From positions 4,871,001 to 4,935,000 of the forward strand of contig NZ_CP015136.1 in assembly GCF_001618865.1 (NCBI RefSeq): 64,000 nucleotides of DNA. The letters are read 5' to 3'. The position numbers and the translations under genes were made by a program. The notes under the pieces are model-generated. The model saw only the letters and a program-made list of their open reading frames with translations, was not told the DNA's origin and searched no databases. Shown piece after piece: positions 5,607 to 20,441 of this stretch; position 1 is the first letter of the stretch; each line of letters begins with the position of its first letter. The DNA comes from Luteitalea pratensis. Lineage in GTDB: Bacteria > Acidobacteriota > Vicinamibacteria > Vicinamibacterales > Vicinamibacteraceae.

Positions 5607-6344
5607 TCAGGCCAGATCACGCTCCGACATGTAGAACTCTCGAGTGGGCACGACCTCGACGGCGACCTTCGCGTTCGCCACGTTCGCCGTCCCGGACACG
5701 GCCTTACCCTCGACCAGCCGGCTGGCTACCGTGTTCGCCTTGCCGGTGAAGCGCACGGTGACGCCGTGCCGCAGCTCATCGTCCGTGAACTGACGGCCCC
5801 GGATCTCGGCCGACACGACCTGATCGAAATCCCCCTTCCTGGTCAGGAGATGCGCGAGAAAGAGCTCCTTTCCCTTGCCGAAGAGGACGTAGGCGAGACC
5901 ATCGAGGGGCGTTGGCAACGGGAGGAGTTTCTGGACGAAGATCACGTTGCCGATGGTGACGTCGACAGCAGCGCCGATTGATGCCGGCTCGTCCGGGTAT
6001 TCGGCCGGCTGCTCGAAATGGCCGCGGAACAGCTCGCCGCTGATACGCTTGCGCTTCGGATCCGGTGGAAAGAGCTCCGGAAGGACAAAGGGATCGGGAG
6101 CAAACGTGTACACCCGCGTGTCCGGGTGGCTGTGGCGATCCTCCCTGTAGGTTCGTTGCGGATCCGCCCCGGCCTGGGAGAAGGTGCCCTCGAGGATGGT
6201 CTGATAGTCGTGCGGCGACATGAACATGGGCAGGTGATAGAAGAAGGCCGTCTCCTGGCCGAGCACGAGCATTCCGTGGCTGACCGCTCGGTCCACCCGG
6301 GCCGAATCGTGGGCGTGATCCGTCATATGCGCGTGCTGATCCAT
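5607..6344 (-). CDS. Conserved protein of unknown function, 245 residues
   Basis: I do not recognise a named family, but the frame is clean and has strongly patterned motifs: a His-rich start (MDQHAHMTDHAHDSARVD), VLGQETAFFYHLPMFMSPHD, DRHSHPDTRVYTFAPDPFVL, ELFRGHFEQP and a long beta-rich C-terminal half. The His and aromatic richness near the N-terminus could indicate metal binding. No signal peptide is visible. The ATG at 6344 is chosen because the upstream 25 codons overlap the NTF2-like remnant. It is followed in the same direction by the small frame at 5427 and DUF1036, so these may be one transcript. Its survival among broken catalase-like genes suggests it is still under selection. Confidence 0.65.
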   Translation of the reverse strand: MDQHAHMTDHAHDSARVDRAVSHGMLVLGQETAFFYHLPMFMSPHDYQTILEGTFSQAGADPQRTYREDRHSHPDTRVYTFAPDPFVLPELFPPDPKRKRISGELFRGHFEQPAEYPDEPASIGAAVDVTIGNVIFVQKLLPLPTPLDGLAYVLFGKGKELFLAHLLTRKGDFDQVVSAEIRGRQFTDDELRHGVTVRFTGKANTVASRLVEGKAVSGTANVANAKVAVEVVPTREFYMSERDLA

Positions 6345-9227: not shown

Positions 9228-9548
9228 TTATTTCCGTGAGGAGCGTTCGTCGAGTACCCAGCAGTCGCGGAAGGACATCTCGCAGGTGGCAAGTCTCTGT
9301 AGGACTTCCGACGGAATGGTTCGAGCCTCCAATGCGACCGCGATTCTGAAGCCCACGTCCGTGTGGCTTGTTTGGACTCCGTCCTGAAGCTGCTGGGAAT
9401 TAAGGAAGGGGCGAATTTGTGACAAGTCATCCAAATAGCCTCCCCCTCTCAGTTCGGGTGCGTGACCTCTCAGGTACGACCCCCCTATCATTGAGCGAGA
9501 GAACGTGCTCTTACCAAGACACCATTCCCACACGTTACCGATGGCGTC
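9228..9548 (-). pseudogene. Formylglycine-generating-enzyme (SUMF1) family, C-terminal fragment
   Basis: DAIGNVWEWCLGKS, RSMIGGSYLRGHAPELRGGG and SHTDVGFRIAVAL reproduce the C-terminal signature of FGE/SUMF1-domain proteins (D-x-x-G-N-V-W-E-W, then R-G-G-S, then GFR). The N-terminal two thirds are missing: just upstream (toward 9557) the sequence becomes the 5' end of an IS5-type transposase in another frame. An insertion or deletion event therefore joined the two. Confidence 0.7.
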
Positions 9549-9556
9549 CGGGAGGA

Positions 9557-9722
9557 CCACAATGTCACGTCGCCCCGACTGACGAGGCCGCGTTCGTACA
9601 CCCGCCAGTTCACCACCCGATACTGCGTTGTGTACGTGGGATGCACCTGCGACTTCATCGCACGATCATGCCGTGGGAGGACCGGCAACCCAACAGAAGA
9701 CCAGCAGCCGTGCACCAACGCC
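9557..9722 (-). mobile_element. IS5-type insertion sequence, left-end remnant
   Basis: From an ATG at 9658 the minus strand encodes MKSQVHPTYTTQYRVVNWRV followed by YERGLVSRGDVTLW, the conserved N-terminus of IS5-family transposases (..YKVKNWxEYxxALVxRGxITLW..). Homology stops at about 9557, where formylglycine-generating-enzyme sequence begins, so some 90% of the transposase is missing. The region upstream of the ATG shares GCACGGCTGCTGG with a second remnant near 20930, probably part of the element's left end. Confidence 0.6.
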
Positions 9723-9987: not shown

Positions 9988-11568
9988 ATGGCTACGGAGA
10001 CATGCACGATCAAGACGGTGCCCACTGATCAGTTGGTTGCAGCCGCCAGCAATGCCATCGAGGTAAATCCCGCCAATGCCACTGTCCCCCAGGCGCTGCA
10101 GCGAGCGCTGCCGGACGAGGTGATTCCGCCGGACCATCTGGCGATCCTGACGGCAAAGTACTGGGGATCGGCGGGTGTGAAGCTGACCGTCGGCTTCCTC
10201 GACAATCCTCCGGCCGATCTGCGCGCCCGTATCGTCAGCCACATGAATGCGTGGAGTGCCACGGCGAACGTCCAGTTCGTCGAGACGGCCGTCAACCCGC
10301 AAGTCCGCATTGCCAGGACGGCCGGGGACGGCTATTGGTCGTACCTGGGCACCGACGTCAAGCTGATTGCCGCCGGCCAGCCGACGATGAACCTGGCATC
10401 GTTCACCATGGCCACGGCCGACTCGGAGTTCCACCGCGTGGTGCGTCATGAAGCCGGCCATACGCTCGGCTTCCCGCACGAGCACAAGCGCACGGAGATC
10501 GTCAACCGCATCGATCGCGAGAAGGCTATCGCCCACTTCATGGCGACACAGGGATGGTCGCGCGAGAAGGTGATCGCGCAGGTCCTGACGCCGCTCGACA
10601 CGTCGGCCCTGATCGCCACCGCCACCGCCGACCCCAACTCCATCATGTGCTATTGGCTGCCGGCGTCGATCATGAAAGACGGAGTTGCCGTGAACGGCGG
10701 CCCCGATATCAACGCGCTCGATGCGCAGTTCGCGGCCTCGGTGTACCCGAGGTTCGCCAACTGGCAACTGCTGGACAACAATCCCTCGACCGGCGCGATC
10801 GCCGCCGATGGAGCGGCGCTGTACCAGATGCACAAGAATGGCCGCATCTGGAAATACACCGGCACGCCGCTGACCGGATGGCAGGAGCTGGACAACAATC
10901 CGGCGACCAAGAAGATCGCAGTCGCAAACGGCAATCTCTACCAACTGCACAACAACGGCCGGATCTGGAAGTACGTCAGTCCACCGATGACAGGGTGGCA
11001 GGAGATCGACAACAACCCGGCGACAGTGGACATCGTGGCAACCAGCGGAGATCTTTATCAGCTGCACAACAATGGTCGCATCTGGAAGTACACCGGCGTG
11101 CCGCACACCGGCTGGCAGGAACTGGACAACAATCCGGCGACGAGACGGATCGCCGCAGCAGGCGGCCAGCTCTATCAGCTCCACAGCAACGGCCGGATCT
11201 GGAAATACGTCGGCCCACCGATGACCGGTTGGCAGGAGTTGGACAACAATCCGGCGACCACGAGCATCCTGGCCTCGGACGGCGACCTCTATCAAATGCA
11301 TGGCAACGGTCGCATCTGGAAGTACACCGGCGTTCCGCACACGGGCTGGCAGGAATTGGACAATAACCCGAGGACGCGGCAGATCGCCGCCGGCGGCGGG
11401 CGTCTATACCAGATCCACACTGGCGGAGCCATCTGGAAGTACGTCGGACCACCGCTGACAGGCTGGCAGCAGATTGACGGCAACGGCGCATCGACCAGCA
11501 TCGCCGCGTCAGGTAACAGCCTGTATCAGCTGCACAACACCGGGTTGATCTGGCGATACACCGGATAG
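9988..11568 (+). CDS. Astacin-like (M12) metalloprotease with seven C-terminal repeats
   Basis: The 526-residue product has a zinc-protease domain (about 1-256) with HEAGHTLGFPHEHKR (H154, E155, H158, H164) and the Met-turn SIMCYW (M220), the arrangement of astacin-like metzincins. Residues 259-526 are seven 39-residue repeats (WQELDNNPAT..LYQLHNNGRIWKY..TG), of the tectonin/tachylectin-like beta-propeller type, likely to bind carbohydrate or a surface partner. No N-terminal signal peptide is evident (MATETCTIKTVP), so export or release by another route is possible. The ATG at 9988 is chosen over longer versions because GAAAGG (9973-9978) lies nine bases before it and the homologous domain starts there. 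A related protease domain sits in the caspase operon 5 kb downstream. Confidence 0.85.
   Translation: MATETCTIKTVPTDQLVAAASNAIEVNPANATVPQALQRALPDEVIPPDHLAILTAKYWGSAGVKLTVGFLDNPPADLRARIVSHMNAWSATANVQFVETAVNPQVRIARTAGDGYWSYLGTDVKLIAAGQPTMNLASFTMATADSEFHRVVRHEAGHTLGFPHEHKRTEIVNRIDREKAIAHFMATQGWSREKVIAQVLTPLDTSALIATATADPNSIMCYWLPASIMKDGVAVNGGPDINALDAQFAASVYPRFANWQLLDNNPSTGAIAADGAALYQMHKNGRIWKYTGTPLTGWQELDNNPATKKIAVANGNLYQLHNNGRIWKYVSPPMTGWQEIDNNPATVDIVATSGDLYQLHNNGRIWKYTGVPHTGWQELDNNPATRRIAAAGGQLYQLHSNGRIWKYVGPPMTGWQELDNNPATTSILASDGDLYQMHGNGRIWKYTGVPHTGWQELDNNPRTRQIAAGGGRLYQIHTGGAIWKYVGPPLTGWQQIDGNGASTSIAASGNSLYQLHNTGLIWRYTG
10762..11565 (+). repeat. Seven in-frame 117-bp tandem repeats
   Basis: Each unit begins at the Trp codon of WQ(E/L/Q)(L/I)D and ends at TG. 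The first unit is two residues longer than the others and the last is cut short after WRYTG. Units ending KYV.PP(M/L)TG alternate with units ending KYTG(V/T)P(H/L)TG, and units 3 and 5 are close copies, which suggests growth by duplication of two-unit (234-bp) blocks. Confidence 0.9.
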
Positions 11569-11596
11569 CCGCGTACTCGACGACGCCCTTGCGAGC

Positions 11597-11905
11597 ATGG
11601 GCCGCCGCCGTGCCGCTGGTCCTCAAATCAACGTCGACGCGATTGGACCGGCGGCGGTCGCTGCATCCATCGAGCGACCAGCAAGCAGGACTCTGATGGA
11701 GATCCGATTGGTCGGCGTGGGACCTGTGTCGCTCGAGGAACTGGAGGCGCGCCTCTCGGCCTACCTGAATGCAGGCGCGCCCAAGCCCGTGCTCGAGGGC
11801 ACTCTACAGCAACAGCGAGAGGTCCTCGAGCATGTGGCGTCGCGCGGGGATTCGCAGATGAAGTCGGCAGTCGCCAACTATGTCATGCGGGAGTCGAAGG
11901 ACTAG
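11597..11905 (+). CDS. Hypothetical protein, 102 (or 69) residues
   Basis: I do not recognise this protein. It is soluble and mainly helical (LEELEARLSAYLNAG, then TLQQQREVLEHVASRGD, MKSAVANYVMRESKD). It starts 28 bases after the repeat-bearing protease and shares its strand, so it may be cotranscribed. An internal ATG at 11696 has AGGA five bases upstream and gives a 69-residue product; the longer start at 11597 has no ribosome binding site, so the shorter form may be the real one. A small helical partner or inhibitor of the protease is possible but unsupported. Confidence 0.55.
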   Translation: MGRRRAAGPQINVDAIGPAAVAASIERPASRTLMEIRLVGVGPVSLEELEARLSAYLNAGAPKPVLEGTLQQQREVLEHVASRGDSQMKSAVANYVMRESKD

Positions 11906-12019
11906 GCCGCCCTGGGTTGACGAAGCTGGCCAAGGTCCTGGCAACGGGATCTCGAGCGGACCTTGGGTTGGAGAAGTGCCAGTGGGCCGAGCGGGCGCCG
12001 GGGGCGCCGAGGAGAGACC

Positions 12020-13126
12020 ATGATTGAACCGTTGAGTCCCGTCGCCGGCGTGGAGAACGTTCCGCAGGGTGAGACCGAGCAGATCGAAGAGATCGCAGGC
12101 CTGATGCGCCAGCTGTTGGAGAAGCGCTATGGCAGCGCCCCGCCGTGTCTACGGGGTGTCCACCCGAAAGCGCATGGTTGCGCACGCGCAACGTTGACGG
12201 TGAACGCCGATCTGCCAGACGGGTTACGGGTCGGTTTGTTCGCAGACGCCGGAGCCAGCTACGAGGCAGTCGTACGGTTCTCCAATGCCGCGGCGCTCGT
12301 TGGCCCAGACTGCCAGGACACCGTGAAGAACGGTGTCCTGGCGGCACGCCAGCACGGCAGTCGTGGGATGGCGGTCAAGATCTTCGGGGTGCCGGGCGAA
12401 GGGCTTACCGATGACGAGCCACACACCCAGGACCTGCTGATGGTCAATTTCCAGGTGTTCCCTTTCGCCAATGTCGCGGATTACCTGGTCCTCACTCGCC
12501 TCCAGCTCAGGGCCGAATCAGCGCCGCCGAGCGCCCCGAGTGCAACGGCGGGACAGGATGTTGAACCCGACAACGTGAGACTTTTCAAAGCGTTCGGCGC
12601 CGAACTGGTCAAGACTCAAGGCGGCGCGCTACGCGCCACGAGAGCACGCGAGATCAGCACGGCCATCCAGAGCAGCGCCATGACCGATCCGGTCTCGAGC
12701 AAGTACTTCAGCGCGGCGCCCTTCATGTTCGGGACCGATCGCGTGATGAAGTTCTCGGTCCGACCGGAGGCGCCCGCAGCGGACACGCCGCTCGCTGACA
12801 CGCTCGATCCCGATTACCTGCGCACGGCACTCGCGAACCGGTTGCGCGCAACGGATGTATCGTTCGAGTTGGCCGTACAGGTCCGTGAGCCGTCACAAGA
12901 GGCCGCAATCGAAGACGTGACCCACGACTGGGCGGACGTTGCCTACCAGCCTGTCGCTCGCATCATCACCCCGAAACAGGACACCGAAGATATGGACCTG
13001 CGTCAACGATGCGAGACTCTATTCTTCACGCCGTGGCATTCACTGATCGACCATCGCCCGGTCGGCGGCATCAACCGGCTGCGCCTCGCGGTCTACAGGG
13101 CGAGTGTGGAGCGGCGACGACAGTAG
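12020..13126 (+). CDS. Catalase-family protein (intact)
   Basis: The 368-residue product is a compact member of the catalase superfamily (SrpA-like). CLRGVHPKAHGC (R45, H48) is the RxxH heme-pocket motif; AVVRFSNAA, GSRGMAVKIFG, TQDLLMVNFQVFPF and SKYFSAAPFMFGTDRVMKFS follow in family order, and WHSLIDHRPVGGINRLR closes the domain. Canonical catalases are about 480 residues; this class lacks the wrapping and C-terminal domains and often acts as a peroxidase or organic-peroxide enzyme. No signal peptide is seen. GGAGAG (12011-12016) supports the ATG at 12020. Two decayed relatives lie at 1985 and 6645. The adjacent RoxA-like di-heme gene is convergent. Confidence 0.85.
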   Translation: MIEPLSPVAGVENVPQGETEQIEEIAGLMRQLLEKRYGSAPPCLRGVHPKAHGCARATLTVNADLPDGLRVGLFADAGASYEAVVRFSNAAALVGPDCQDTVKNGVLAARQHGSRGMAVKIFGVPGEGLTDDEPHTQDLLMVNFQVFPFANVADYLVLTRLQLRAESAPPSAPSATAGQDVEPDNVRLFKAFGAELVKTQGGALRATRAREISTAIQSSAMTDPVSSKYFSAAPFMFGTDRVMKFSVRPEAPAADTPLADTLDPDYLRTALANRLRATDVSFELAVQVREPSQEAAIEDVTHDWADVAYQPVARIITPKQDTEDMDLRQRCETLFFTPWHSLIDHRPVGGINRLRLAVYRASVERRRQ

Positions 13127-13158
13127 GCTCGCGCGTCACGTTGGAGTCCTGCGGACTT

Positions 13159-13180
13159 GGCCGGCGGCGTCGCGCCGGCC
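13159..13180. terminator. Hairpin between convergent genes
   Basis: GGCCGGCG (13159-13166) pairs perfectly with CGCCGGCC (13173-13180) around a 6-base loop. It lies between the converging catalase-like and di-heme genes. There is no T-run, so if it terminates transcription it is not a textbook intrinsic terminator. Confidence 0.4.
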
Positions 13181-13256
13181 GTAAGTGCGCGCCTGCGAAG
13201 GCACTGGTCGAAGGGCAGAAGCCGCGGATGTCAGCCGTCACGGCCACAAACACGGG

Positions 13257-15389
13257 TCAGATTGACTTCAGATATTCGAGGATCGCCCGCTTTTCCTCTG
13301 GCGACGGTTCCCGCCCTTGGAAATGCGCGGCGCCGGCGTGACCGCTGCGGCTGTTGCCGTTGTCGTCCACGCCCGACCGGCGCACCGACGTGATCAGCTT
13401 GAAACACGTGGGAGGGCGATTCGCCGCGCCGCAGATCGCTTCGCCCTTCTTGACGTCAACGCCCACCGCACGGGGATCGAACTCATTGTGGCCCACCCAG
13501 AAACTCTCGGGCCGTGTCTCGGGGAACAGGACCGATTCGAGGGTGGGCCAGGCGCCGTTGTGGCCATAGGGTGAGGTGAACGCGATGCCGTTGAGCGGCC
13601 GAGCCCGGTAGACCTTCATCTGCGCCAGCGTCGGCGGCTGCGGCCGTGCTCGGAAGAAGGCGAACTTGTCACGATCGCTTGCCGCGGTCTGCCGATCCGA
13701 GTACGCGTCGAGGAAGTAGGAGTCCACGGCGCTGGCAGTCGACCCCGCGAGGAGCATCAAGGTCATCACCGAGCCGTCCGTCCGGCGCAGATCGTTGCCC
13801 GGAGTGAGTTGAGTCTTCCTGAGTTTGTCGAATTGCGCGTTCACGATCGCTTGTCCAGCCAACGTCACGTCGCGGCCCTCGAGCTCGGCGATCCGGGCAG
13901 CAAGCAACGCCGCCGGGCCTCCGACCCTTTCGCGGACGGTCGCGAGAATCCCATCGCGCATTTTGCCATCGAGGATCTCGGTCGCCCGTGGATTGAGCGT
14001 GTAGCGGGAACCCGCGTGAGCCTTGATGAACTGGTCGTCCGTACCCACCTTGTCGAACGGCACCTTGGTGACCCGCCATCCGTATCGAGTCCGACCGAGG
14101 TAGCTCTCCGAAACGAAGTGGTTATCAAGGTCACTCGGATCTTCCGTGCCGCCCCAGTTCTCGCCGACGGTGTCCCACTGCGCGCTGAACTTGGCGAGAT
14201 ACGGCTGCGCGTGACACCCCTGGCAGTAGGTGACGAACGCTTTCGCGCCCGCAAGGGCAAGGTTTTCGTCCACGGCTGGGAACTTCGGCGACCACCTGGG
14301 ACTCTCGACCCAGTCGAGAGCCTCCTCGAGCGCATACAGATTCTTGACCTTGGCTGTCGAGCGGACCCGCCATCGCCCTGAGGAGTCCTTGTACGTTTCC
14401 GAGTCGCCGAACACACCGAGGACTTCGCCCACGTTGCGCGTGAGAGAGTTCGATGTCAGACAGTTCGTTTGTACGCACTGCAAGCGCGCCGCGTTCCACA
14501 CCGGTGGCACGCTCACCGGCACCTGGATGGGCTTGATGCTGGCCCGGTCACTTCCGGCCGGATCGTAAGGCCGCGAAGGGTCATTCGAACTGCCGTACTG
14601 GTGCCCGAACACTTCGTTCAGGATGTGGCCAACGGCGTCCAGGCGACCGGGCCCCGCCTCCCGACCTTGTGGCACCTGCCCGCGCTCGCGCAAGCCGTCC
14701 ATGCGCGCCTGGGCGGCGGCCAGGCGCCTGGTCGCCTTCACTTCGTCCACACCTTTCGCCGCCATCCGCTCGAGGTACCCGGTTCCCTTTGGATCGTGGG
14801 AGGCCTTGGAGACCGCCGCGTTCAGGTCCGAGATGAACCGCTCGTAATCGAAGTTCGCTTGCCCGGCGTGGACGAGAAAACGTTCGCCCTTGAACTTCAG
14901 GTCGCCCGTGTGACACGCGGCGCACGTCAGGCCGACGTACTCTTGGGTCAGGTCCTTCGCGTGCTTCTCGAGCGGCGTATAACCCTCGCCGCGCCTGTCC
15001 TTCACGACGCCGATGGGCAGGTCCAGGGTCTCTTTCTCGCGGCCGCCCAGCTCCTGGTAGTCGTCCGCGTAGAGAAAGCCGTAGGCCTCGAGACTCTGCC
15101 TTGCGGAAAAGAGCGTGCCATCCGACGGTCCGGCAATCGACATGAACACGTCGAAGTCGAGCAGGTGTGAGCCCTGCGTGGTGAAGTACCACGTCCGGGC
15201 GAGTCCCTGCGCATCCGCGCCCTTTCTCCAGTGGTTGAGAAATCCCGCCTGTGGTACGGCAGACGCGCGTGGTGTCCGGAGCGCTGGCGCGGGCTGCGTG
15301 CATGCACCCGCTACCGGTGCCAGGACACAGATGGTGAGAGGCGCTGATCGTGCGACCCGAGAGAGGGCTGAGAAGAGACGGCGACCCAT
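13257..15389 (-). CDS. RoxA-like di-heme cytochrome c peroxidase-family protein
   Basis: The 710-residue product carries two c-type heme motifs, CAACH (156-160) and CQGCH (389-393), with the spacing and flanking blocks of RoxA-type proteins: VPPVWNAARLQCVQTN, RNVGEVLGVFGD, and the C-terminal RPLNGIAFTSPYGHNGAWPT and ESFWVGHNEFDP. RoxA cleaves polyisoprene oxidatively; most relatives have unknown substrates, so dioxygenase or peroxidase activity is only a family inference. The N-terminus (MGRRLFSALSRVARSAPLTI) is a signal peptide; a cysteine at residue 30 may allow lipidation, though the lipobox is weak. The ATG at 15389 has GGAG close upstream on the minus strand. It converges with the catalase-like gene and follows the caspase operon after a 286-base gap. 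Confidence 0.8.
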   Translation of the reverse strand: MGRRLFSALSRVARSAPLTICVLAPVAGACTQPAPALRTPRASAVPQAGFLNHWRKGADAQGLARTWYFTTQGSHLLDFDVFMSIAGPSDGTLFSARQSLEAYGFLYADDYQELGGREKETLDLPIGVVKDRRGEGYTPLEKHAKDLTQEYVGLTCAACHTGDLKFKGERFLVHAGQANFDYERFISDLNAAVSKASHDPKGTGYLERMAAKGVDEVKATRRLAAAQARMDGLRERGQVPQGREAGPGRLDAVGHILNEVFGHQYGSSNDPSRPYDPAGSDRASIKPIQVPVSVPPVWNAARLQCVQTNCLTSNSLTRNVGEVLGVFGDSETYKDSSGRWRVRSTAKVKNLYALEEALDWVESPRWSPKFPAVDENLALAGAKAFVTYCQGCHAQPYLAKFSAQWDTVGENWGGTEDPSDLDNHFVSESYLGRTRYGWRVTKVPFDKVGTDDQFIKAHAGSRYTLNPRATEILDGKMRDGILATVRERVGGPAALLAARIAELEGRDVTLAGQAIVNAQFDKLRKTQLTPGNDLRRTDGSVMTLMLLAGSTASAVDSYFLDAYSDRQTAASDRDKFAFFRARPQPPTLAQMKVYRARPLNGIAFTSPYGHNGAWPTLESVLFPETRPESFWVGHNEFDPRAVGVDVKKGEAICGAANRPPTCFKLITSVRRSGVDDNGNSRSGHAGAAHFQGREPSPEEKRAILEYLKSI

Positions 15390-15675
15390 ACTCCGAACTC
15401 CAGTCTGGAGGTTGGCTCCATGTTGCTCCGCGCCGACGACGGATGCTTGCACGGCCGACCGGCTCGTGACGCCGCTGCCGAGGCATGCTCGGCGGGAGAA
15501 CGCTCACCATCAGGGCAGTCCCGCGCAGGTCTTGCAGTACGGCTCGCTGGTCCACGCGGAAGTATGGCGAGGCTCCAGTCCGCCTGCGGCAACGGTCGCT
15601 GGCCCTCGGACAGGGCGGGAATGCTGCTGCCAAGGCTCCAAGGCGACGGTACAGCAGTGCACAACCATGCAGGCG

Positions 15676-16248
15676 TTACGGGTACCGCCGCCCCTGGTAG
15701 CGATTGGTTTCGAGTAACGGTGACGGCGTCACGCCTGTAATGCGTGCGAACTCCGACGACGTCAGCACCTCCACATGGACGCCCATCGCGGCGAGTCTCG
15801 ACCACTCGTCTGAGTCGATGCGCGCGCGACCCTCTGTGTCGGAGCCGCGTCGCAGGGCGACGACTTCTACCCACAGGCGACGGTTTCTCGGTCCGAGACC
15901 GCTGACAAATCGCTCCGGCGGCACGATCAGGTAGTTGCGCGGATCGTGCGACAACGCGGGCATCCACTCTCCTCCGCTTACGAGATCGGCGTCTCGCGGC
16001 GACTCCTCTCTCACCCGCACGGCAACCTGCACCGCCCTCTGGAGCGGTTGAAACCCGATCCAGAACACCTCTCCGGTTCCGACGCCCGCGAGCACGACAT
16101 CCTGACCCGCCGCAAGCGGTGCCCTGCCGTAACTGGGCCGCGGATCATGATCCGATGGAGCACTCAGAAGCGTTCGCTGCAGTGAGATCTCGAGCACCTC
16201 ACCGAGCACGATCCCATCGTCAGCGATTCGCCACGAGTGCTCCGCCAC
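15676..16248 (-). CDS. Hypothetical protein, third gene of the caspase operon
   Basis: The 190-residue product matches no family I know. It opens as beta-rich (SWRIADDGIVLGEVLEISLQ), has AAGQDVVLAGVGTGEVFWIG and RNYLIVPPERFVSGLGPRNR, and ends basic (ETNRYQGRRYP). There is no signal peptide, membrane segment or catalytic motif. It starts 28 bases after the stop of the metalloprotease-fusion gene on the same strand, so cotranscription with the caspase and that fusion is likely. By position it could be a substrate, effector or inhibitor of one of the two proteases. Confidence 0.6.
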   Translation of the reverse strand: MAEHSWRIADDGIVLGEVLEISLQRTLLSAPSDHDPRPSYGRAPLAAGQDVVLAGVGTGEVFWIGFQPLQRAVQVAVRVREESPRDADLVSGGEWMPALSHDPRNYLIVPPERFVSGLGPRNRRLWVEVVALRRGSDTEGRARIDSDEWSRLAAMGVHVEVLTSSEFARITGVTPSPLLETNRYQGRRYP

Positions 16249-16276
16249 TACCTGCCGCCTGCTATCCGGTACATGC

Positions 16277-18697
16277 CTAGGTGCACGGCTGCTTGCGCGG
16301 CCCCTGGAATGGATAGTTGCACTGATTGTGCGCGAACTTCTTGTCCACCTCCGAGAGCTTCTCGTTCGGCTTCGAGCTGAAGCCGTCCGTCGTCCAGCTC
16401 TGGGGAATGGCGTACAGCATTATCGACTTCTTGTCCAGCGACGTGCCGTTGATCTGATCCTGGTCGTACGTGTCGAACATGTTGTGCTCGATCGTGGCCG
16501 CATCCCAGAAATTCGGTGACCCGCTGAGATCGGCGATCACTGCCGGCTTATTCCACTTGATGCCGCCCTCGGGGTTCTGGTGTTCATGGATGAGACCGAT
16601 GGCGTGTCCGAACTCGTGCAGCACCACACCCTCGTCCTGCCATCCGAGGTTCATCGTCGGTTGCCCGACTGGAATGCTGGCGCAGTCAGTACCTATGTAC
16701 GACCAGGCGCCATCGTTCTCGTCGAACGTGATCCTGATCTCCGAGTTCTGGTCGTTACCGAACACGAGCTTGATGTTGGCGTGTTCGGCCCACTGTGGCG
16801 CGAATTGCTTGACGATGTCCTTCTGCTCTGGTGTGCCGCTCATGAATCGCACGCGAAGCGTCTTGCCGACATCCCAGAGCTTCGCGATCTCGAAGGCTGC
16901 ACGTGTCCGCGCACCGGCAATGGGCGCCGATGGACGAACCTTGTTGAGGTCTTTCGGCAGAATGCGATCGAAGCAGACTTTGGGCGCCATGGGAATTTCT
17001 CCTTTGAGTAGTGTCGACAGCCGGTCGACTGCGGTTGTGACCGCGCTTTGGGGAATCCCGAGCGCCTTCACCATGGATGAGTCGAGCAGGAACTGATCCC
17101 GCGCGTCCTTTGCCCACTCGAGCACCTGGTTGGCGTCGGGAAGATGACGGCCCGTCACCCAGCCGTATGCGGAACTGTACAGCCGCCCTGACAGATTCGA
17201 AGGTGACAACGGCGACAGCTCAGAAGCGAGCTGCGACTGGCGCGCGGCGGACGCGAGATAGCGGAGCACGCGCGTCTCCGATGCGTCCAGATCGAGGCGC
17301 CTGGCGAGAGCCGTGATGTAGCGGTCGGCGTGGTGTCGCGGAAGCAACTTCCCGAGCTTGTCTATGACCTCTGCGATCTGCTTGCCGCGATCGGCGCCGA
17401 ATGCCACCGAGCTCTTGCCTGACGCCATCGATCTCGCCGCACGGACCGGCCTCGTTTCTGCGGGAGGTGCTTTCCACACCAGCCATGCGCCGCCGCCCCA
17501 CGTGAGCGTGGCGATGCGCGCGGAGTACGAATCCATCGGAATGATTCCCGGATGTTCGACCGACTTGTCGATGACCAGTTGCCAGCTCGATCGAAGCATG
17601 GGCGGCATGGGGAATGCGGCGTCGCCTTGCCAGCCGGCCGCGTATCGGAGCGCAGCCACGTCGGGATGGCCGGGCACCAACCGCTCGAGGTTCCTGACGA
17701 CCTTCTGCAGTAGATCGATGTCCACCTTTGCCTCTAACAGGAGGAGGTGACCACCGAGGATGCCCAGCATCGGGTTGGTGAACTTCTCGGCGAGCAGTCT
17801 GTCCACCGAGGTCCCTTCTGACTGAGGCACGGCGTCGGCTTCAGCGACTGCGTCGCGCAGGGCGGCAATCGGCGCGGCGGGAGTGCGCGCGAAGAGCGCC
17901 ACTTTTGCAGCCTCGACCCAGTCGACAGCCGACGCGTCGATGCTACAGCCCCTGCCCTGCAGCGACATCAGCACCGCGCCTCGCCGGAGGTCTGCGCCCT
18001 TGAAGCCCTCGGTGCCGTAATCGGTGGGCGTCAGCAGCACCTGCGTCTGCCATCCTGCGACGGCGTGAACGGCTTGCTCGAGGCGCCCGAGCGAGCCTGC
18101 CGCGGCGCTGAGGACGTAAGTGCCTGGTACAACGGCAATGGTGTGGGCGCGCGCGCCGGCGCCTTCCTTGTACCAGCCCGCGTCCTTCCCGAAATCTGCG
18201 ATGACGAGCCCGTTGCTGTCCTTCACCTGGACGTCGAAGATGCCGACGTGCGTGGAGGGGTCTTCCTTGCCGAGCAGTCGCGAGAAGATGAACAGTTCCG
18301 AGCCCTGGCCCGGTGCCGTGTGCACCTGCTGACTGACGTCGGCAACCCATTGCATCAGCTTGCGTCCATCGTCTGTTGTGCGCTGCGGCAATGCCGTCGT
18401 GCGGGTCGAAAGCTGAGGAACGGGAACGATGCACTCGGCAGTCCCCCCGCGGACGCGCACGGTCTGCTCCTGCACGCTGCGGCCCGCCTTGTATTGCAAC
18501 TCGTACAACCCTGGCGCCACCTGCACGTCGAGCACGCCGACGGCGTGCGCAACCGCGGCGAAGTTACCATCGAACAGCATGATCTCGGCCGTCGGGTGGC
18601 CGGCGTTGGCGACGAGTCGGACCGTAGACGACGGCTGCGGCGACGATGCCGAAGACCAGCGGCGCGACATGCTCCCGATCCAGTCCGCTACACCCAC
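16277..18697 (-). CDS. Large protein with C-terminal astacin-like protease, caspase partner
   Basis: The 806-residue product is a fusion. Residues about 20-240 form PEGA-like or carboxypeptidase-regulatory-like beta-sandwich segments (VLDVQVAPGLYELQYKAG, IAVVPGTYVLSAAAGSLGR). Residues about 300-370 are helical (NPMLGILGGHLLLLEAKVD). Residues about 575-800 are a zinc protease with HEFGHAIGLIHEHQNP (H694, E695, H698, H704) and Met-turn SIMLYAIP (M760), the same family as the protease at 9988. No signal peptide is visible. The GTG at 18697 starts 4 bases after the caspase stop, with GTGGAG upstream, implying coupled translation. The N-terminal 550 residues could act as a pro-region or as an adaptor to the caspase, whose own C-terminus carries a similar beta-sandwich. 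Confidence 0.8.
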   Translation of the reverse strand: MGVADWIGSMSRRWSSASSPQPSSTVRLVANAGHPTAEIMLFDGNFAAVAHAVGVLDVQVAPGLYELQYKAGRSVQEQTVRVRGGTAECIVPVPQLSTRTTALPQRTTDDGRKLMQWVADVSQQVHTAPGQGSELFIFSRLLGKEDPSTHVGIFDVQVKDSNGLVIADFGKDAGWYKEGAGARAHTIAVVPGTYVLSAAAGSLGRLEQAVHAVAGWQTQVLLTPTDYGTEGFKGADLRRGAVLMSLQGRGCSIDASAVDWVEAAKVALFARTPAAPIAALRDAVAEADAVPQSEGTSVDRLLAEKFTNPMLGILGGHLLLLEAKVDIDLLQKVVRNLERLVPGHPDVAALRYAAGWQGDAAFPMPPMLRSSWQLVIDKSVEHPGIIPMDSYSARIATLTWGGGAWLVWKAPPAETRPVRAARSMASGKSSVAFGADRGKQIAEVIDKLGKLLPRHHADRYITALARRLDLDASETRVLRYLASAARQSQLASELSPLSPSNLSGRLYSSAYGWVTGRHLPDANQVLEWAKDARDQFLLDSSMVKALGIPQSAVTTAVDRLSTLLKGEIPMAPKVCFDRILPKDLNKVRPSAPIAGARTRAAFEIAKLWDVGKTLRVRFMSGTPEQKDIVKQFAPQWAEHANIKLVFGNDQNSEIRITFDENDGAWSYIGTDCASIPVGQPTMNLGWQDEGVVLHEFGHAIGLIHEHQNPEGGIKWNKPAVIADLSGSPNFWDAATIEHNMFDTYDQDQINGTSLDKKSIMLYAIPQSWTTDGFSSKPNEKLSEVDKKFAHNQCNYPFQGPRKQPCT

Positions 18698-18701
18698 GGC
18701 G

Positions 18702-19766
18702 CTACTCCACGGTGACTCGTCCGGCCTCTTGCACGTCGTTCGACAAGCCCGGGCGAACTTTCAACAGAGCCTCAGTGCCGTCGCTGAAACGCACGCTGTA
18801 CAAACCGGGCTTCAGCGACACCTCCGTCCTGGTGGCGGACGCGGTCACGCGCACGGGCGGCGTTAGCGGACTGTCATTGCCGTCACGCACGTCGCCGGCC
18901 TTGCCGTGGAACGTCTGGTTCCACTCGATCGTGACCTTCGGCAGCGTCGTACCGGTCCCGCTCTCGAACAGCACGATGTCGTCGAGGTTGCCGAGGTTGA
19001 ATCGCGGGAACTGCGGCACGTCCCCTTCGCGCAGCTTTGAGATCGAGAGCTGCAGGGCGCCTTTCAGACCAAGCGCCGTGAGCGTGCCGTTGGTCTGACC
19101 GGCCCCGCTGCGCAGCACCTCGAGCAGTGCGTAGGTGAACACGCCGCGGGATTCCGGTGGCGAGCCCAGCGGCTGCTCGAACGACGGCGCGTCCCACTGC
19201 GTCGCCAACACGTTCAACGTCTTGACTTTCGTCGGATCGCCGCCCTTCACGGGCGAGAACGGGACCGGCGCCTGTTCGATGTCGTCCAATGCATTGCGGC
19301 AGCAATCCATGAACAGGATGACCTCTTCGAAGGCATGCGACTGCCTGAACCACTCCGCGTACGCCGGCCCCGCCAGGTGCAGCCCGGTGCTGCCGTGGTC
19401 GGCGTTAGCCATCAGCAGCGCCGCACTGTCCAGACTGTTGCTGGTAACGCGAGGGGTGATGCCGTGTCCAGCCAGGTAAATGTAGAGGCGCCGCCCGACG
19501 CGCGGGAGCTTCTGAAAATTCCGGCGGGTAAGATCGGCCAGCTCCCTGAAGTGTACGTTGACCGCCTCGATGGCCGGCTGGGTGAGTGCCGGCGGAACAT
19601 CCGCCGACACGACATTCGGCGAATACACCTCCCGAATGTTTTCGGGAGGCACGCTTCCGTGCTCAACAAGCCAGTTGCGAAAGGCCTGCGCGTCTTTCAC
19701 GGGGCCTTCCAATCGATCGAAGGCCGGATAATTGTTGATGCCGACCACCACTGCGTAATCGTTCAT
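18702..19766 (-). CDS. Caspase-like peptidase (C14 family)
   Basis: The 354-residue product has a caspase-fold domain over about 1-250. It begins MNDYAVVVGINNYPAFDRLE, with a putative catalytic His in YIYLAGHGI (H101) and Cys in ILFMDCCRN (the D-C-C pattern; C156 probably the nucleophile). Bacterial relatives mostly cleave after Arg or Lys and act in stress or antiphage-type responses. The C-terminal 90 residues form a beta-sandwich (TEVSLKPGLYSVRFSDG) resembling the PEGA-like domains at the start of the next gene's product. There is no signal peptide, so it is cytoplasmic. It is the first gene of a three-gene minus-strand operon. Confidence 0.9.
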   Translation of the reverse strand: MNDYAVVVGINNYPAFDRLEGPVKDAQAFRNWLVEHGSVPPENIREVYSPNVVSADVPPALTQPAIEAVNVHFRELADLTRRNFQKLPRVGRRLYIYLAGHGITPRVTSNSLDSAALLMANADHGSTGLHLAGPAYAEWFRQSHAFEEVILFMDCCRNALDDIEQAPVPFSPVKGGDPTKVKTLNVLATQWDAPSFEQPLGSPPESRGVFTYALLEVLRSGAGQTNGTLTALGLKGALQLSISKLREGDVPQFPRFNLGNLDDIVLFESGTGTTLPKVTIEWNQTFHGKAGDVRDGNDSPLTPPVRVTASATRTEVSLKPGLYSVRFSDGTEALLKVRPGLSNDVQEAGRVTVE

Positions 19767-20441
19767 GGCACGTTACTGGCGAGCGTGGTCATTAGTCGAG
19801 CTGCGGGATCGAGAAGTCTTGCGACACTGGCGCGAAGGAACGCCGCGGCCCATTGTGTGCCTTGCTTGGATTCGTCGATGGCATCGAACGATGTTACGGC
19901 GCAACTTCGACGACGTCTGCCGTCACGCCGCTACGTCGCAACGCTCGATGCATCCGGCGAGCGGTTTCCATCCAACTCCAACCGGGACAGACGCTGCAGA
20001 TTTTCCCGAGTGGACTTGACGTTTCGTCTTTATTTCGCTTTACGCAGTGCGAGCCGTGCACCTCTGGGAATAGAAGAACGGCGGAGCCCTCAACTTTGTA
20101 CAACATCGGTATCGCGGCAGCGCTCGCACCACGACGCGCTGCACTCCGCACACATCGAGCAATCGCAGGACTCCTCGCAACGAGATGTGCTCCCGGGCCC
20201 GATCCACCGCGCGCAGGATCGCCTTGGCGGGTCGGTTGAGCAGGCGCTCGCCTGCGAGCGTACGCCCGCAGCTCGGTCGCGAGGCGAGGCCAGCCGGAGC
20301 AAGGCCGCGCGCTTCAAGTGCATGGGGCGACGCGAGGAGCTGGATTGTGTCCAATCCCATTGGTCTTGGCTGTCTCGAAGAGTTCAAGGAACGCGCCCTG
20401 CAGCACATCCGGTCCGAGGACTTGGAGGACGCAGATCGATG
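19767..20441. other. No intact gene; possible transposase relic on the minus strand
   Basis: A minus-strand frame (about 20260-20100) reads AILRAVDRAREHISLRGVLR, which recalls the helix-turn-helix start of some integrase-type transposases, but the following sequence is broken and I could not confirm it. The caspase operon promoter should lie just right of 19766; no convincing -35/-10 pair was seen. Confidence 0.3.

Follow-up and report, generated by a model that had tools for sequence, protein, structure and literature searches.

What is the function of a region of roughly 550 residues placed in front of an astacin-like metalloprotease domain, and could the product of an adjoining caspase-family gene switch that protease on? 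The initial annotation of this locus proposed that the whole region is the pro-part of a zymogen and that the caspase cuts at the junction, at about residues 550–580. The window analyzed here is the entire 64,000-nucleotide stretch from the genome of the soil bacterium Luteitalea pratensis, and the features discussed below are collected in Table 1. The open reading frame, P0001, proved real, with 806 codons and a GTG start, and lies on the minus strand, a detail absent from the earlier description. The tight linkage to a caspase gene also held: this gene lies immediately upstream on the same strand, its stop codon separated by 4 nt from the start of P0001, and a third gene follows 28 nt downstream.

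Table 1. Features of the caspase–metalloprotease locus. Positions refer to the window; Nreg is our own name for the front part of P0001.
Feature	Position	Strand	Basis or remark
Nreg–astacin fusion ORF P0001	16277..18697	minus	806 aa, GTG start
Caspase-family (Peptidase_C14) gene, 354 aa, adjoining the 5' side of the fusion	18702..19766	minus	Pfam and PADLOC matches
Third gene, 190 aa	15676..16248	minus	outside Pfam and NCBIfam families at cut-off
Nreg part, aa 1–569, caspase partner protein	16991..18697	minus	13 outside loci have homologues beside a caspase or joined to it
HTH-like helices, aa 540–566, C-terminal end of Nreg	17000..17080	minus	end common to stand-alone Nreg proteins
Caspase Asp25, first acidic S1 residue (TbMCA2 Asp95 equivalent)	19692..19694	minus	13/13 with intact N-terminus
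Caspase catalytic His101	19464..19466	minus	14/14
Caspase Asp154, second acidic S1 residue (TbMCA2 Asp211 equivalent)	19305..19307	minus	14/14
Caspase catalytic Cys156 (D-x-C)	19299..19301	minus	14/14
Pro-segment, aa 570–599	16901..16990	minus	alignment; model superposed on myroilysin pro forms
Cys575, predicted zinc-ligating cysteine switch	16973..16975	minus	invariant in 18/18
Arg599, predicted P1 of the activation cut	16901..16903	minus	basic in 16/18 aligned relatives
Mature catalytic domain, aa 600–806, myroilysin-like M12A	16280..16900	minus	sequence and AF2 model
Zinc-binding motif HEFGHAIGLIHE, aa 694–705, with family-specific Glu	16583..16618	minus	invariant in relatives
Met-turn SIMLY, aa 758–762	16412..16426	minus	conserved in relatives
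Met570	16988..16990	minus	stand-alone relatives have their start codon here in the alignment
Shine-Dalgarno-like AAAGGAG, 8 nt before Met570; relic or internal start	16999..17005	minus	sequence

The third gene gave no Pfam or NCBIfam match above cut-off; it is weakly similar (E 0.011) to the gene that follows a caspase–Nreg fusion in S. terangae, and a Kovacikia resemblance was not retrieved with phmmer. No promoter- or terminator-like signals were found across positions 15500–20200. None of the three genes encodes a nuclease, the Pfam matches of the fusion being to the metalloprotease only, and no MoxR or vWA genes were seen among the neighboring ORFs read, which were profile-scanned in part. 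The GC content falls from 0.66 to 0.59 across the fusion junction; because GC3 is equal despite this drop, we do not claim a recent transfer. Our incomplete coverage of the literature yielded no published description of a caspase–astacin operon.

A genome search with the whole of P0001 returned two kinds of relatives, namely astacins that lack the front part and proteins that match the front part only. The closest case (genome G493, locus L043) carries a 558-residue Nreg and a 237-residue astacin, 63% identical to its counterpart in P0001, as separate genes on opposite strands; in P0001, 569 and 237 residues add up to the full 806. Stand-alone Nreg proteins end with the HTH-like helix pair that P0001 has at about residues 540–566 (weak MarR-type HTH match, E 0.16), so that P0001 holds a complete Nreg. 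These sequence comparisons make us nearly certain that P0001 is a fusion of two complete proteins. Since Nreg stands as its own gene elsewhere, the view of the entire 550 residues as a pro-domain can be dismissed; they represent a separate partner protein.

Nreg itself matches no model in Pfam, NCBIfam or PADLOC. The description of its architecture as beta-sandwich and helical modules agrees with the predicted secondary structure, but the fold prediction behind it is weak, with a pLDDT of 54 for a model built from five sequences (the alignment used for folding was the set without plasmid-derived rows). The Ig-like and pilin domains that this poor model hits, with Z values around 7–8, provide no evidence of kinship, and we do not claim homology between the C-terminal segment of the caspase and the N-terminal domain of Nreg (hhalign probability 12.5%). 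The family looks rare, since no Nreg was found in 385 sampled genomes from the class of locus L018 or in 369 from the class of locus L020, with few candidates scored per genome.

The suggestion that the front part resembles neighbors of caspases was borne out. In all 13 outside loci, homologues of residues 1–569 lie directly after the gene for a caspase of the same family as that of the window, mostly with overlapping ends, or are fused to the caspase, as in L045 and L046. Three of these loci (L028, L029 and L033), in which Nreg directly follows the caspase, came from the genome search with P0001, and ten further loci came from a plasmid collection and from the bacterium's own class. Nine loci were reached through the fusion protein or Nreg and four through the caspase alone, so the pairing is no search artefact. 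The weaker cases among the 13 are L053, with a weak Nreg match, and L054, whose caspase appears broken at the N-terminus. Across 193 genomes of the own class, Nreg occurs in 4, this type of astacin in 13 and both in 3; the two are adjacent or fused in all three, some of these sequences being part of the query profiles. Altogether, six loci, counting the window, link caspase–Nreg to a cysteine-switch astacin. In the tree, the caspase-linked astacins are split up, and at least two changes are needed; the linkage could reflect either an old association with losses or repeated recruitment.

Sequence comparison further shows an exchange of effectors between caspase–Nreg loci. An astacin is found beside Nreg and the caspase in L029, L043, L045 and L046, either with Nreg and astacin as separate genes beside one caspase (L043, L029) or as an astacin gene accompanying a caspase–Nreg fusion (L045, L046). 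In L028 (genome G183; 11139–13292, minus strand), a phosphoesterase-family protein of the phospholipase C type is fused to a cysteine-switch astacin upstream of the caspase and Nreg genes. Other loci carry alpha/beta-hydrolase-like proteins (L033, L048, L051–L054), a NucA endonuclease–trypsin protein (L049), a subtilisin (L050), or a lysozyme with a pYEATS-bearing partner (L053). On rhizobial plasmids the effectors are fused to Nreg itself: trypsin with phospholipase D in L048 (6596–11143, plus strand), and a trypsin-like with a NucA-like region in L051 (8028–11786, plus strand). For the NucA-like region in L051 and the hydrolases in L033, L051, L052 and L054, the identification comes from their resemblance to annotated homologues rather than from a Pfam hit. 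In both L048 and L051 the effector is joined to the same end of Nreg as the astacin in P0001, and fusion to Nreg is therefore a recurring design. On a Kovacikia plasmid (L047, 2555–5539, minus strand), a single ORF combines an amidase, an alpha/beta-hydrolase-like region and a caspase, and is divergent from a frameshifted cysteine-switch astacin.

The assignment of the C-terminal part as astacin-like is sound, with a Pfam Astacin match above cut-off at residues 622–710 (E 4e-9). The best solved sequence relative of P0001 is myroilysin (residues 595–789, E 9e-44); the nearest solved structures are three myroilysin entries at E about 1e-43, followed by tolloid/BMP1 at about 1e-5. The domain has the HExxHxxGxxHE zinc site with the family-specific Glu, the Met-turn and the fold of the myroilysin-like branch of M12A. 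An AlphaFold2 model of residues 570–806 (pLDDT 82, with 46–59 in the pro-segment) superposes on 5zjk, the mature form of myroilysin, over 198 residues (Z 26.4, rmsd 1.7), and on the pro forms with Z about 21 and rmsd 3.9. No signal peptide was seen in the N-terminus of P0001 or in most stand-alone relatives, as read. In one relative, the 1134-aa astacin of genome G231 (L027), a long extension at the N-terminus was judged a spurious reading frame. The NCBIfam model NF050131 (beta-glucuronidase AbsR1) matches P0001 (E 5e-37) and the protein at 5992–7008 of L018 (E 7e-49), both below cut-off; the name of the model seems to conflict with the zinc-protease site conserved in these proteins.

Stand-alone relatives from Alphaproteobacteria, Betaproteobacteria, Chloroflexota and Acidobacteriota start with Met and 4–6 further residues, followed by C-[FYHI]-D-[RKH]-[IV]-L-P; the equivalent in P0001 is Met570-APKV-Cys575-FDRILP. 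The 18-row astacin alignment in which Cys575 is invariant takes in caspase-linked, orphan and tectonin-type relatives. The cysteine is likewise kept in each of six more close relatives, which are independent, have a complete start and had not been used in forming the idea, and the more distant matches of that search have no Cys at the aligned position. The end points of the structural alignments of the 570–806 model with proMMP-9 (model residue 1 = 94) and pro-karilysin (model residue 2 = 21) offer a hint in the same direction: if the start of each alignment is ungapped, Cys575 would coincide with residue 99 of the former and residue 25 of the latter, the switch residues of those enzymes. Cys575 matches the cysteine switch of pro-myroilysin, and on the strength of this homology it is the predicted ligand of the catalytic zinc and very probably the latch. 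The myroilysin switch itself has been proven (PMC9848320). As for the zymogen idea, latency is very probable given Cys575, but its element is the short segment 570–599 and not the 550-residue region. Relatives without Nreg also have this short pro-segment with the cysteine.

The second conserved position of the pro-segment is that of Arg599, where 15 of the 18 rows have Arg and one has Lys; Arg also stands there in four of the six further close relatives. The Arg of myroilysin that pairs with Arg599 in the profile alignment sits immediately before the start of the mature chain 5zjk, and the superposition on 5zjk begins at model residue 31, which is Ala600; the natural maturation point is therefore placed between Arg599 and Ala600. 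Mature myroilysin starts with a glycine bound to the family-specific glutamate (PMC9629494), and the Gly at the mature start position fits this report. By homology to myroilysin, maturation at Arg599 is likely. Basic residues do exist between 550 and 580 (R559, K565, K573 and R578), but it is Arg599, further downstream, that is conserved and corresponds to a mature N-terminus known from a structure. A cut at 550–580 is accordingly not favored, the only pro-segment positions conserved in nearly all relatives being those of Cys575 and Arg599.

A basic residue conserved just before the start of the mature chain points to cleavage by a protease that prefers basic residues at P1. Arg or Lys occupies the Arg599 position in 6/6 caspase-linked astacins and in 10/12 others, so that the site alone cannot single out the caspase; given that Arg is conserved also where no caspase is linked, another protease or autolysis could make the cut. 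The caspase gene of the locus matches Pfam PF00656 above cut-off (E 1.3e-8) and the PADLOC caspase model (E 1.8e-15). By alignment, its product shares the His–Cys dyad and the acidic S1 aspartates of metacaspases and orthocaspases (C14, C14B), but its similarity to them is low (E 0.007 to metacaspase-4) and it has a C-terminal segment of its own. In TbMCA2, two aspartates accommodate basic residues, and these are conserved in bacterial orthocaspases (PMC4357240, PMC6426788). As Asp25 and Asp154 align with them, Arg/Lys specificity is expected.

On this basis, our best explanation is a modular system of caspase, Nreg and latent effector, in which a caspase cut after Arg599 would unlock the metalloprotease; we give it an even chance. 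It draws on the fusion, the caspase–Nreg pairing, the conserved Cys and Arg, and the caspase dyad with its acidic S1 residues, all established at the level of sequence. The effector would be an M12A metalloprotease without a signal peptide, joined to the C-terminus of Nreg and kept inactive by the pro-segment (570–599) with Cys575 on the catalytic zinc. Bound to Nreg, the caspase would respond to a presumed trigger and cut after Arg599, thereby removing Nreg and the cysteine latch together. The freed N-terminus at Ala600 would bury against the family-specific glutamate, and the active metalloprotease would degrade cell proteins, probably halting growth or killing the cell when phages attack or in some other conflict. 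By analogy with known systems, a role in defence or cell death is evenly balanced in our estimate, and the assignment of the Arg599 cut to the adjacent caspase falls slightly short of that. Against the explanation count the astacin of L043, which lies on the opposite strand, the low confidence of the modeled pro-segment, and the fact that no defence-island context was established for the window.

The closest functional parallel is Canu, in which a complex of caspase and partner activates a pro-nuclease and thereby confers protection from phage (PMC12799240). Both comprise a caspase (CanA in Canu), a co-encoded partner (CanB) and an effector (CanC), in the present locus very probably also a proenzyme, with a protease-sensitive lock. 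In Canu, however, the effector is an MBL-fold nuclease and the cut sites include conserved glycines, whereas here an M12A metalloprotease is fused to the partner and the predicted site has a basic residue. No MBL-fold pro-nuclease lies downstream of the caspase; with a different effector, the locus would work like Canu yet is no member of it. EACC1-associated caspase and VMAP caspase systems with alpha/beta-hydrolases (PMC7159879) similarly place exchangeable effectors beside a caspase, including an alpha/beta-hydrolase as in L033 and L048; they differ in that Nreg matches no known family and in that the caspase, at 37.9 bits against a cut-off of 140, is far below the EACC1-associated type (NF047832). 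With myroilysin (M12A; pro form 5gwd, mature form 5zjk), P0001 shares the catalytic domain, the pro-segment cysteine and the mature N-terminus after Arg, but it is about 40% identical, lacks a signal peptide and has the Nreg fusion and the caspase linkage. Caspase–Nreg may, rather tentatively, be an undescribed bacterial core over exchangeable latent effectors, forming here a two-step protease cascade in immunity or cell death, in which the caspase would free and activate a second, unrelated protease out of its fusion to the partner of the core.

Cysteine switches of MMPs can also open through thiol modification, which raises the alternative that the latch is released chemically, by oxidation or other modification of Cys575 in the cytoplasm and subsequent autocatalytic loss of the pro-segment, while caspase and Nreg act on another target. 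Five orphan relatives (L018, L019, L020, L024 and L026) would suit this, having the same Cys, no signal peptide and no caspase–Nreg match in their flanks. We regard it as unlikely, because this astacin type is linked to caspase–Nreg in six loci, the window among them, and because the basic residue conserved at the mature N-terminus speaks for a protease. The strong-looking Shine-Dalgarno-like AAAGGAG before Met570, a residue aligned with native start codons, could instead mean that the caspase acts on Nreg and not on the pro-segment, that the fusion is a recent accident and that the functional protease arises from an internal start, in keeping with the separate Nreg and astacin genes of relatives. 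An internal start at Met570 is possible, the signal being only suggestive: 5.5% of the in-frame positions have a predicted anti-Shine-Dalgarno energy at least as good. This weighs against the accident, as do L048 and L051, whose effectors join Nreg at that same point, and we consider it the least probable of the readings.

Only slightly easier to accept, and still quite improbable, is export of the metalloprotease, which would then act extracellularly or inside a competitor, with the caspase link serving release or immunity and not activation within the cell. Myroilysin is a secreted enzyme, several relatives have C-terminal PPC domains, which are frequent in exported proteins, and enzymes of the lysozyme, phospholipase and NucA types near other loci also occur as interbacterial effectors. 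The missing signal peptide in the fusion and in most stand-alone relatives argues against export, as do the tightly coupled caspase gene, itself without a signal peptide, and the lack of any secretion genes noticed beside the metalloprotease gene. Activation by the caspase within the cell remains our preferred reading. If it is true, a metalloprotease joins the caspase-controlled effectors, in a bacterial cascade of proteases akin to antiviral systems discovered recently, and the cysteine-switch design of astacins, for which myroilysin is so far the one proven case (PMC9848320), extends to proteins without signal peptides. The authors of the Canu study predicted further classes of proteolysis-activated enzymes in bacterial immunity (PMC12799240); the present locus is a concrete, testable case, with Cys575 as the predicted lock, the Arg599–Ala600 bond as the predicted cut and the adjacent caspase as the candidate cutter. 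As a caspase partner family without a Pfam model, Nreg may also reveal more effectors through its loci.

The window contains a second astacin of the same broad family (9988–11568, plus strand), about 5 kb from the caspase operon and on the opposite strand. It has a Cys at residue 6 and a His in the Arg599 position, and its C-terminal repeats are rich in tectonin-like motifs (GWQELDNNPAT...), with relatives in L037, L038 and L040. An apparently broken gene at 9228–9560 (minus strand) resembles, by eye, the C-terminal part of a formylglycine-generating-enzyme (FGS) domain. Genes for a weakly catalase-like protein (11963–13126, plus strand; E 0.006) and a RoxA-like cytochrome c protein (13257–15452, minus strand; E 5e-11) lie in the interval that separates this second astacin from P0001.
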